From an uncultured Ignavibacteria bacterium (lineage in GTDB: Bacteria > Bacteroidota > Ignavibacteria > SZUA-365): DNA of 37,303 nucleotides. The position numbers were made by a program, and so were the translations under genes. The stretch is from NCBI GenBank assembly GCA_913061095.1, contig CAJXVM010000033.1, positions 1 through 37,303 on the forward strand. The letters run 5' to 3'. The number at the start of each line of letters is the position of its first letter. The first letter of the stretch is position 1. This document shows, piece by piece, positions 12,376-20,003 of this stretch. Below the pieces are notes generated by a model. The model had not been told where the DNA came from and ran no database searches. It worked only from the letters and a program-made list of their open reading frames with translations.

Positions 12376-12450
<75 letters not shown>

Positions 12451-14352: not shown

Positions 14353-14761
14353 CAAGCGGGCTCGTGTCCATCGGGCAGCCGCCTCCGCTTCGGCGGGGGA
14401 GGAAAGTCCGAACTCCGCAGGGCAGGGTGCCGGATAACACCCGGGCGTCGCAAGGCGACGGAAAGTGCAGCAGAAAACACACCGCCCCGCCCCAGGCGGG
14501 GTAAGGGTGAAAAGGTGCGGTAAGAGCGCACCGGCAGTCTGGCAACAGGCTGGCCTGGCAAACCCCACCCGGAGCAAGACCATGTAGGAGCGCCGTCAGA
14601 CGAGCTGCGCGGCCCGCGCAGTATCCCGCCCCGCGGGATCGGCACTCGGGTAGGTCGCGTGAATTCCGCGGCGACGCGGAATCCAGATAGATGGCTGCCT
14701 CTTCCGCATTGGCGGAACAGACAGAATTCGGCTTACAGATGGGCTCGAGTCCCGCATTGCT
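14351..14761 (+). ncRNA. rnpB: RNase P RNA, bacterial class A
   Basis: The ~411-base RNA matures tRNA 5' ends. The first bases AGCAAGCGGGCTCG pair with the last, CGAGTCCCGCATTGCT, forming helices P1/P2-type ends. The universally conserved core 'GAGGAAAGTCCGAACTCC' lies near the 5' end, and its P4 partner 'ACAGAATTCGGCTTACA' lies near the 3' end. 'GGAAAGTGCAGCAGAAA' and 'GGTAAGAGCGCACC' are further conserved segments. The 5' end overlaps the stop codon of the zinc-ribbon gene, and no clear promoter is visible at the expected distance. The RNA may therefore be processed from a longer transcript. End positions follow from helix pairing and could be off by a few bases. Confidence 0.96.
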
Positions 14762-17363: not shown

Positions 17364-17900
17364 ATGCTGATTCTGGGTGTGGATCCGGGCTCACTGGTGA
17401 CAGGCTACGGCGTTATCGAAACGCGGGGCAGCCGCTATCGCCGACTCGTATCGGGTGTCATCACCATGCGTCCGGCGGACGCCGTCTCGATTCGGCTGCG
17501 CAAGATCTATGATGGGTTGATCGAGGTCATCGATGCCTGGCACCCGGATGAATTCTGCGTGGAGACCGCCTTTTACGGCAAGAACATTCAGTCCACACTC
17601 AAACTCGGACAGGTGCGCGGCGTCGCCATTCTCGCCGCAGTGCATCGGCAGCTCGCCATCACCGAGTATTCCCCGCGAGAGGTCAAGCGTTCGGTCACCG
17701 GTTCGGGGGCCGCATCGAAGCAGCAGGTTGAATACATGGTCCGCACCATCCTGCATGTGGAAGAAGCGTTCCGCAAATCCGATGAGGCCGACGGCCTGGC
17801 GCTGGCCATCTGTCACGCCATGCAGATGTCGGCGCCGCGGAAGGGAACGCGCAGCTGGGAGCAGTTCATCAAGGCACATCCCGAACGGGTAAAGAAATGA
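17364..17900 (+). CDS. ruvC: Holliday junction endodeoxyribonuclease RuvC
   Basis: The 178-residue protein has the RNase-H-like resolvase fold with all four catalytic acids: D7 in 'GVDPGS', E67 in 'CVETAF', D140 and D143 in 'KSDEADGLA'. 'SRYRRLVSG' and 'YSPREVKRSVTGSG' are the usual conserved loops; the latter covers the DNA-contacting segment. RuvC cuts four-way junctions as a dimer after branch migration by RuvAB. The gene overlaps ruvA by 4 bases (ATGA), so the two are translationally coupled. Confidence 0.97.
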   Translation: MLILGVDPGSLVTGYGVIETRGSRYRRLVSGVITMRPADAVSIRLRKIYDGLIEVIDAWHPDEFCVETAFYGKNIQSTLKLGQVRGVAILAAVHRQLAITEYSPREVKRSVTGSGAASKQQVEYMVRTILHVEEAFRKSDEADGLALAICHAMQMSAPRKGTRSWEQFIKAHPERVKK

Positions 17901-18496
17901 TTGTATCCCTTCACGGCACTCTGTTGTCAAAAGAAGCAGTGTTCGCCGTCATCGATGTGAATGGGGTGGGCTACGGCGTGCACATCACGCTGTCCACCTT
18001 CGAAGCCCTGCCCGACGTGGGCGGGGAAGTCACGCTTCTGACGCATCTGCATGTGCGCGAGGACGCCATGCAGCTCTTCGGCTTCCGGCACGCGGCGGAG
18101 CGGCGCATGTTTCGCCAGCTGCAGGGAATCTCCGGCATCGGCGCGCGCATGGCGCTGAACATTCTCTCCGGTGTGGCGCCCGAGGAACTGCGTCGCCGCG
18201 TCACAACGGGAGATATTGCGGCCCTGACGCGCATCCCCGGCATCGGACGAAAAACCGCCGAGCGCATTGTCGTGGAGCTGCGCGACAGTTTTGCGCGCGA
18301 GGGCGGGACGGAAGAAAGCGCCGGCGGTGCGGCTTCCGGCGCGCGTGACGAGGCACTGATGGCCCTTCAAGCGCTCGGTTACCCTGGAAATGCCGCCGAA
18401 AAAGCCCTTGCTGCGGTCCAGCGCATGGGCGAAAACACTGATTTTCCGGCTTCAGAACTCATTAAAAAAGCGCTGCAACAGCTGAATTCCCGGTAA
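17897..18496 (+). CDS. ruvA: Holliday junction branch-migration subunit RuvA
   Basis: The 199 residues show the three RuvA domains. An N-terminal OB fold starts 'MIVSLHGTLLSKE'. Two helix-hairpin-helix motifs follow, 'GISGIGARMALNIL' (about 76-89) and 'IPGIGRKTAERIVVEL' (about 112-127). A flexible Gly/Ala/Glu linker leads to the C-terminal RuvB-binding three-helix domain 'DEALMALQALGY'. RuvA tetramers bind the junction and load the RuvB helicase. No ruvB lies in the window, so it must be encoded elsewhere. The gene ends the recJ-yebC-ruvC-ruvA run. Confidence 0.97.
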   Translation: MIVSLHGTLLSKEAVFAVIDVNGVGYGVHITLSTFEALPDVGGEVTLLTHLHVREDAMQLFGFRHAAERRMFRQLQGISGIGARMALNILSGVAPEELRRRVTTGDIAALTRIPGIGRKTAERIVVELRDSFAREGGTEESAGGAASGARDEALMALQALGYPGNAAEKALAAVQRMGENTDFPASELIKKALQQLNSR

Positions 18497-18537
18497 CTCG
18501 TTGTATAGCAATGGATTAAAATTTTTTATCTAAACCC

Positions 18538-18568
18538 TTGCTTTAACGAATCAGCTTATATATATTTG
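18538..18568 (+). promoter_or_regulatory. Strong Bacteroidota-type promoter with AT-rich upstream block
   Basis: TTG at 18538-18540 is exactly 20 bases before TATATTTG at 18561-18568, matching the TTG-N20-TAnnTTTG pattern. Directly upstream, 18513-18531 is almost pure A/T (ttaaaattttttat), like an UP element. The predicted start is near 18575. No open reading frame with a start codon follows on this strand, which suggests a non-coding product. Confidence 0.7.
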
Positions 18569-18574
18569 TAGCGC

Positions 18575-18641
18575 ATTCACTGTTTCCAAGAGCCAACTCT
18601 AGTCTTCCTCCCTCCTCAGCTTTAGTTGGCTCTTTTTTTTT
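18575..18641 (+). ncRNA. Candidate small RNA (~67 nt) with anti-Shine-Dalgarno loop
   Basis: A perfect promoter lies just upstream and a textbook terminator ends the unit: an 11-bp stem aagagccaact / agttggctctt (18588-18598 and 18624-18634) followed by an unbroken run of nine T's. Between them there is no coding frame. The 25-base loop contains TCCTCCCTCCTC (18606-18617), which holds CCTCCT, the anti-Shine-Dalgarno sequence, plus an overlapping second TCCTCC. The RNA could therefore pair with the ribosome site of mRNAs. The ends are inferred from the promoter and terminator. The alternative is a leader-type terminator behind ruvA, but ruvA ends before the promoter. Confidence 0.55.
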
Positions 18642-18736
18642 GTCCAATCCCAAAAATTGAACCTGATTGATCGCCACGCGCCGTACGCTGTGGGCTATGA
18701 TGTTTTGGAGGACGGATTCCCTGCCGTTCGGTCCCT

Positions 18737-18748
18737 TTCACATGTGAA
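18737..18748. promoter_or_regulatory. 12-bp palindrome TTCACATGTGAA
   Basis: A perfect 12-base palindrome lies in the gap between the candidate small RNA and glnB, about 90 bases beyond the 3' end of glnB. It is the only recognisable element between 18642 and 18829. No function can be assigned; it may be chance. Confidence 0.2.
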
Positions 18749-18829
18749 CGATTGATATCGACCATCCAGTGAGCTTCAACGCAATGGACAGGGGCAGGTA
18801 ATCCGTCATTGCGTACTGCTTTCTGCTCC

Positions 18830-19192
<363 letters not shown>

Positions 19193-19203
19193 TCATGTCC
19201 GCT

Positions 19204-19233
19204 GAAATTACCGCTGCCCTGATGAAAATGCAA
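19204..19233 (-). promoter_or_regulatory. Candidate glnB promoter
   Basis: Read on the minus strand, TTG (19233-19231) is followed after 20 bases by TAATTTC (19210-19204), one mismatch from TAnnTTTG within the bases compared. The spacing equals that of the clearer promoters in this window. It would give a leader of about 25-30 bases before the glnB start. Confidence 0.4.
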
Positions 19234-19310
19234 TCTTTGTTCTTGTCGCGCAGTTTCGTAACATCGGAAAGCATCTCACGAGTCACAATCCATCTTTCCG
19301 CCTAAAGCCT

Positions 19311-20003
19311 GTGTACCCTGCCGTATTCCATCTTCAGCGTCCTGAATCGCTGTCGCGTCTGCGTCTGATACTGCGACCCGTGCTTGTTCTCCCGATCCTG
19401 ATATGGGCGCTGCCATATTCGCTCTTCGCGGGCTTTCTGCATGTGCTCGCCTGGTGGTCGATCCTGTTCTCCGGCCGGCATCCCCAGCTGCTGTGGGATC
19501 TGCTGGAAGGATACTTCCGCTTCATTGTGAAAATCCATGCGTACATGATGTGCCTGACGGACGCGTACCCGCCGTTCAGCGGGGGAGCTGACGCCCCGTC
19601 TCCGGTTCGCATTCACATCATGTACCCGGGCCGGCTCTCGCGCAGCACAACGGTCTTTCGCCCGCTGATTCTTTTTCCGCATTATTTCTACTGCATCGGG
19701 TACTCGACCATGTATGCCGCCGTGCATTTCCTGCATTTCTGGACCATCCTCTTTCTCGGCCGCATGGCCGCGTGGCAGCGAACGCAGACCGAACGATACT
19801 ATACATACATGTCGCGTCTCGCCGCATATGGCATGCTGCTCGTTGACGAATATCCGCCCTTCAACGGTGCGCAGCCGCGTGCGGCAGAGAGGGTGTTCTC
19901 CGCAACCGGGGATTCGTCGATCGTGAATGCAGGCGCGCACCCTGCGTCGGAGCACGACGCGTCGCACCATGCCGACAATAACGCTGTACCAGTGAAAAAG
20001 TGA
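19311..20003 (+). CDS. Tandem DUF4389 membrane protein
   Basis: The 230 residues hold two copies of the same ~90-residue unit (about 1-92 and 100-186). Each has an R-P motif ('LRPVLVLP', 'FRPLILFPHYF'), a hydrophobic hairpin ('WWSILFSGRHP', 'FWTILFLGRMA') and a closing 'AYPPFSG' or 'EYPPFNG'. This matches the DUF4389 family of small bacterial membrane proteins, whose function is unknown. The short C-terminal tail is polar with a His/Asp cluster. The start is a GTG without an obvious ribosome site, so the N-terminus is less sure. It lies between the divergent glnB and the nuo operon promoter and looks monocistronic. Confidence 0.75.
   Translation: MYPAVFHLQRPESLSRLRLILRPVLVLPILIWALPYSLFAGFLHVLAWWSILFSGRHPQLLWDLLEGYFRFIVKIHAYMMCLTDAYPPFSGGADAPSPVRIHIMYPGRLSRSTTVFRPLILFPHYFYCIGYSTMYAAVHFLHFWTILFLGRMAAWQRTQTERYYTYMSRLAAYGMLLVDEYPPFNGAQPRAAERVFSATGDSSIVNAGAHPASEHDASHHADNNAVPVKK

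Follow-up and report, generated by a model that had tools for sequence, protein, structure and literature searches.

What is encoded between ruvA and glnB in the 37,303-nt contig CAJXVM010000033.1 of an uncultured Ignavibacteria bacterium (contig 33 of a 4.6-Mb genome in 42 contigs; the whole contig is called the window here)? A preliminary description had read a complete cassette there, made up of an AT-rich block, a TTG-N20-TATATTTG promoter, an 11-bp stem with a 25-nt loop and nine T's, and had proposed an undescribed small RNA (sRNA). All these elements were seen directly in the sequence, and the cassette as a whole was conserved in 14 genomes. An independently promoted and terminated, undescribed sRNA is well supported, because promoter, RNA and terminator have been kept as a unit throughout the order, the stem covaries and no Rfam family matches; judged by its sequence, the cassette is a genuine, undescribed regulatory RNA family. 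We consider it likely that this is a trans-acting base-pairing sRNA whose 5′ seed would block translation of target genes and which would be titrated by a tRNA-trailer sponge.

Architecture and conservation of the cassette

The elements of the locus were as follows.

17897-18496, plus strand: ruvA, the constant upstream neighbour, which precedes the sRNA in every genome carrying it
18513-18534, plus strand: AT-rich upstream block; in the alignment consensus, a conserved TAAAC stands immediately 5′ of the -33 element
18538-18568, plus strand: Bacteroidota-type promoter, with TTG (18538-18540) within CTTGCTTTAA as the -33 region, N20, and TATATTTG (18561-18568) as the -7 element
18573-18587, plus strand: single-stranded 5′ seed GCATTCACTGTTTCC, unpaired in the fold, with the probable transcript start at or near 18573
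18588-18634, plus strand: terminator hairpin with an 11-bp stem (arms 18588-18598 and 18624-18634)
18599-18623, plus strand: C-rich loop of 25 nt containing TCCTCCCTCCTC, read directly from the sequence
18611-18617, plus strand: CCTCCTC, the invariant loop motif, able to pair with GAGGAG Shine–Dalgarno sites and putatively doing so in targets
18633-18641, plus strand: nine T's at the transcript end, read directly from the sequence
18830-19168, minus strand: glnB, on the downstream side and convergent to the cassette

The 161-bp spacer was matched at the position behind ruvA in eight genomes of two genera with 82–88 % DNA identity, compared with a RuvA protein identity of only 61–73 % in the same genomes, and the search also reached a second family of the order. 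The sRNA was present as a single copy, always 3′ of ruvA, in 14 genomes, comprising 12 of 12 in the family of the window (f1) and two of three in family f3; it was not found in G012 (74 % complete) or G015 (70 % complete). A covariance model search for the hairpin in 294 genomes of the class, a check that the preliminary description had suggested, matched the same 14 genomes, only 3′ of ruvA, and nothing outside the order. When 41 further ruvA neighbourhoods were searched, drawn from the class and from other phyla, the only matches were two order members already known.

TTG-N20-TATATT followed by a 6-nt spacer to GCATT was found in all 14 genomes, the promoter elements and their spacing being fixed while the remaining spacer drifts. 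The RNA start GCATTCACTG was likewise kept in 14 of 14, and GCATTCACTGTT opens the RNA in each of them. The seed (18573-18587) was identical in 13 genomes, with G007 deviating at the last bases; nucleotides 1–12 were invariant in all 14 and unpaired in the fold, and this segment, rather than the loop, was the best-conserved portion of the RNA. The extent proposed earlier was retained at its terminator end (18641), but the conserved RNA start lies at about G18573 instead of 18575.

The preliminary description had made its sRNA depend on conservation of loop and stem in close relatives, and both were conserved. CCTCCTC was present in 14 of 14 genomes although the length and flanks of the loop vary, and because it is invariant this motif is probably functional. 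In the stem, 97 % of the cells were paired and six of the 11 pairs had changed on both sides with pairing kept; the covariation score was equalled by none of 500 shuffles, in an alignment that was fitted to the structure and so favours the stem. When the partner was displaced by one, two or three columns, pairing fell to 62 % or less. The fold of an 86-nt stretch (−17.9 kcal/mol) was matched by none of 200 shuffles (z −4.2), and the fold of the 69-nt RNA gave z −5.1 against shuffles. The 25-nt loop that had been called exposed is present, but three weak pairs are placed within it in the minimum-energy fold.

No Rfam 15 family was matched by the cassette at the gathering cut-off; the top sub-threshold match was SdsR_RyeB, which scored 21.6 bits where 38 are required, and the sub-threshold matches were taken as chance. 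Chance as the origin of the cassette itself is excluded by the conservation described above, namely the level of DNA identity in the spacer and the fixed promoter geometry in 14 genomes. No sigma-70 consensus promoter was found within 18000-19400, and a standard promoter and terminator scan missed the cassette for two reasons: the promoter is of another type than sigma-70, and the loop exceeds the length limit of the scan. The geometry of TTG-N20-TATATT presumably corresponds to the TTG / TAnnTTTG motif of Bacteroidota promoters, which occurs in the literature.

Complements of the seed and of the loop

The 14 genomes were searched for GCATTCACTGTTTCC with one mismatch allowed, which revealed, besides the sRNA gene, recurring sites of the complement GGAAACAGTGAATGC. 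Three gene families carried a seed complement at the translation start or in the 5′ leader: a protein of about 140 aa encoded in tandem copies (the array protein), a lipoprotein and a surface protein with a VWA domain. The conserved start-region sites lie at unlinked genes of these families in genera g1 and g3. Pairing strength was calculated with RNAduplex for nucleotides 1–22 against the candidate stretches and compared with that of 1000 shuffled seeds (floor p 0.001).

The first copy of the array gene opens with ATGGAAACAGTGAATGC in G001, G002 and G004, and with one mismatch in G000, G009 and G011, whilst the second copy has two to three tandem sites directly 5′ of the Shine–Dalgarno sequence in G000, G001 and G004. 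In the lipoprotein gene the site was located about 34 nt 5′ of the ATG in G006, G009 and G011, with variants in other genomes, and its leaders reached p ≤ 0.01 in seven of the nine g1/g3 genomes (p 0.029 in G003; G000 has no site). Neither the array protein nor the lipoprotein had a Pfam match. The VWA protein (1,403 aa; L356:179-4387, minus strand, G000:C13) is secreted and possesses VWA, CARDB and cohesin-type domains; a C-terminal sorting domain was matched weakly. A GGAAA...TGAATGC site, about 34 nt 5′ of its ATG in eight of the nine g1/g3 genomes, was the best-conserved block of the leader, and eight of these nine leaders gave p ≤ 0.008 against shuffled seeds. None of 34 control leaders, taken from window open reading frames (ORFs; a rough set with some spurious members), reached p ≤ 0.01.

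Up to six matches to the array protein per genome were found within the family. At the array locus L358:58-1522 (G000:C5:122357-123821) the copies differ at the N-terminus but resemble each other in the core, and two of the three end in CPPFC...NPLNS. A further candidate target with two mismatches, GCAAACAGTGATTGC, lies 50 nt 5′ of a gene start (L224, G000:C15:2047); we take the gene downstream to resemble pyrroline-5-carboxylate dehydrogenase.

The longest complement was found in a tRNA trailer. The sequence CTCTTGGA(A/T)GCAGTGAATGC lies 3′ of a CAT-anticodon tRNA in G000 to G004, G006, G009 and G011, which amounts to eight of nine genomes of two genera. The complement spans 20–22 nt (one mismatch in G009) and extends into the sRNA stem with one G-U pair, and pairing energies were −36 to −42 kcal/mol, with p 0.001 (the floor) in the eight genomes. 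It is situated within or beside a hairpin, ahead of a terminator where the contig continues; the contig copy of G004 stops before the terminator. Among the trailers folded (G000, G003 and G009), UGAAUGC was unpaired as a toehold in G003 and G009 and in part only in G000, and the predicted joint structure of sRNA and trailer was about 10–13 kcal/mol more stable than the separate structures. The trailer complement was absent from G005, G007, G008, G012 and G014, and the tRNA itself was not matched in G010, G013 and G015. ARAGORN assigned the tRNA as Met; with E. coli ileX in mind, we assume that it may be a tRNA-Ile2.

Sites of the form GGAAACGGTGAATGC were also seen 3′ of a stop codon and ahead of a terminator-like hairpin in G003 (L182, G003:C331:1095) and G009 (L188, G009:C20:11785). 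They follow two unrelated genes, in G003 that of a Clp-type ATPase, and as weak leads could be further sponges in 3′ untranslated regions (UTRs) or chance.

Pairing of the loop with Shine–Dalgarno sequences gave a less uniform picture. Several targets carry GAGGAG Shine–Dalgarno motifs, and pairing of the loop with that of the array gene was −12.5 kcal/mol in G001 and a weak −7.0 kcal/mol in G000, at a position where such motifs are expected anyway. Motifs of this kind precede about half of the window ORFs, several with GGAGG, in the same rough ORF set; Bacteroidetes have been described, in the abstract of PMC6847099, as naturally without Shine–Dalgarno sequences. The C-rich loop may help at Shine–Dalgarno sites. 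The order of the elements suits simultaneous binding, as the 5′ seed would lie downstream on the mRNA and the loop upstream, and we infer that both may contact one mRNA. At both second-type array genes of L194 (G001:C1:408500-411000), GCTGAGGAGG, which complements the loop sequence CCTCCTCAGC exactly, is located about 38 nt 5′ of the tandem seed sites.

Hfq (PF17209) was matched in none of the 16 genomes by a search whose control was positive in five of 14 known genomes.

Proposed mode of action and its alternatives

In the mechanism that we favour, an sRNA of about 65–70 nt (18573 to about 18641) would be transcribed from its own promoter, and the seed would be formed by its unstructured 5′ terminus GCAUUCACUGUUUCC and could be extended to nucleotide 22. 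The mRNAs of the array, lipoprotein and VWA genes would each be bound by this seed through GGAAACAGUGAAUGC-like sequences, placed either at the start codon or within the 5′ leader. Since the sites lie at or just 5′ of the start codon, the result would most likely be a block of ribosome loading and hence repression, to which the CCUCCUC loop may add contacts with GAGGAG Shine–Dalgarno sequences. Pairing would proceed without Hfq, as none appears to be encoded. In the two sister genera, the trailer freed from the CAT-tRNA precursor would serve as a sponge setting the level of free sRNA, presenting the 20–22-nt complement in a hairpin together with the adjoining UGAAUGC toehold. A more far-reaching version is offered tentatively, and we would sooner doubt it than rely on it: an order-specific, Hfq-free circuit, in which a two-element sRNA (5′ seed and anti-Shine–Dalgarno terminator loop) takes hold of a translation start both at the Shine–Dalgarno sequence and at the first codons. 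Envelope-type genes would be under its control, and a single tRNA would supply the trailer that titrates it, so that its activity would be coupled to transcription of that tRNA.

Several observations weigh against the proposed seed pairing at target genes. G000 has 24 two-mismatch sites besides the sRNA gene against a Markov expectation of about 16, a modest excess, and most of the two-mismatch sites sampled in G002, G004, G005 and G008 fall within ORFs. The seed is intact in G005, G007, G008 and family f3, yet no convincing target was found there. The lipoprotein leader of G000 is without a site, and in the VWA-leader site one to three internal positions are mismatched. The array-gene site is part of the coding sequence (METVNA) and its conservation may be partly protein-driven, whilst the tandem sites 5′ of the second array gene resemble what a duplication of the gene start would leave behind. 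Moreover, the targets were found via the seed search, which selects matches in single genomes; the target claim therefore rests on sites keeping their position and on genomes that did not supply the first hit. The within-ORF two-mismatch sites of G002, G004, G005 and G008 were excluded as targets. An enrichment of seed sites derived from a reversed-pattern control (25 versus 2 in G000) was dropped, the expectation of about 16 coming from a Markov-4 model.

Two alternatives concern the origin of the RNA. The hairpin of the cassette, with its T run, is the first terminator 3′ of ruvA; it faces glnB and very probably ends ruvA transcripts as well; it might serve solely as the intrinsic terminator of a ruvC-ruvA transcript, with the promoter-like and C-rich parts incidental. 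Such a terminator needs neither the fixed TTG-N20-TATATT, nor 12 invariant nucleotides ahead of the stem, nor a CCTCCTC that stays the same while the loop around it changes in length, and it would leave the complement in the tRNA trailer unexplained, which makes this explanation very improbable. The sRNA could also be cut from the ruvA mRNA as a 3′-UTR-derived RNA with the same downstream action, as it lies 74 nt past the ruvA stop codon and no terminator intervenes. Against such processing stand the promoter elements and their spacing, conserved in 14 of 14 genomes while the remaining spacer drifts, and we judge it improbable.

The other two concern the function of the conserved segments. The preliminary description had envisaged a general anti-Shine–Dalgarno RNA, acting mainly through its C-rich loop on many GGAGG-bearing mRNAs. 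CCTCCTC is indeed invariant and complementary to Shine–Dalgarno sequences, and motifs of that type precede about half of the window ORFs, but the longer invariant and decisive element is the 5′ seed, which had been overlooked and which has specific long complements, whereas no general pairing of leaders with it was seen. As partners, a few conserved genes and the tRNA trailer could be detected, so that broad regulation of many mRNAs was not borne out and is given little credence here. The segment 18573-18587 lies directly at +1 and has copies near the starts of a few genes, and might instead be a DNA operator for a regulator of this promoter, the copies being further operators in inverse orientation. 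The copies near targets, however, have one orientation and occur within coding starts and in the trailer downstream of the tRNA, and the trailer complement continues into the sRNA stem, as expected for RNA pairing; an operator is accordingly hardly plausible.

Relation to known systems

To our knowledge, few Bacteroidota sRNAs with known partners have been described. No sRNAs in Ignavibacteria were found in a literature search, and no tRNA-trailer sponges outside Enterobacteria in a limited one. The present sRNA belongs to a known kind, and the circuit predicted for it is unusually complete. With a concrete seed, a putative tRNA-trailer sponge, three families of candidate targets and Hfq-less genomes, it would provide a directly testable case both of sRNA regulation that lacks the Hfq chaperone and of sponges from tRNA trailers beyond the Enterobacteria.

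The closest likeness is to GibS of Bacteroides thetaiotaomicron, which is also an intergenic Bacteroidota sRNA with a conserved single-stranded 5′ seed pairing at start codons, in a genus said to have no obvious Hfq or ProQ; a block of ribosome loading has been proposed for it as well (PMC7366714, excerpts). GibS differs in being 145 nt long and largely unstructured and in having other targets, and the same excerpts do not describe for it a C-rich terminator loop or a tRNA-trailer sponge like those proposed here. The trailer resembles 3′ETS-leuZ of Escherichia coli, a tRNA-precursor 3′ trailer that is complementary to sRNAs and titrates RyhB and RybB (Lalaouna et al., 2015, as related in PMC8383071). 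The present case differs in its CAT-anticodon tRNA, in the 20–22-nt complement lying in a hairpin, in the sRNA, which is unrelated, and in the lack of Hfq, and sponge action is predicted from sequence.

An exposed C-rich pairing region is also present in AbcR1 and PmaR of Agrobacterium, and loop mutants of PmaR lose regulation; PmaR differs in that it mostly activates and that its loop is said not to be anti-Shine–Dalgarno (PMC6234868). RoxS of Bacillus subtilis is a C-rich sRNA with a dedicated sponge RNA (PMC8216469). All three belong to other lineages, and the longer invariant element of the present sRNA is its 5′ end.

Elsewhere in the window, the only Rfam matches were a class A RNase P RNA (14363-14751) and a tRNA gene (12378-12450).
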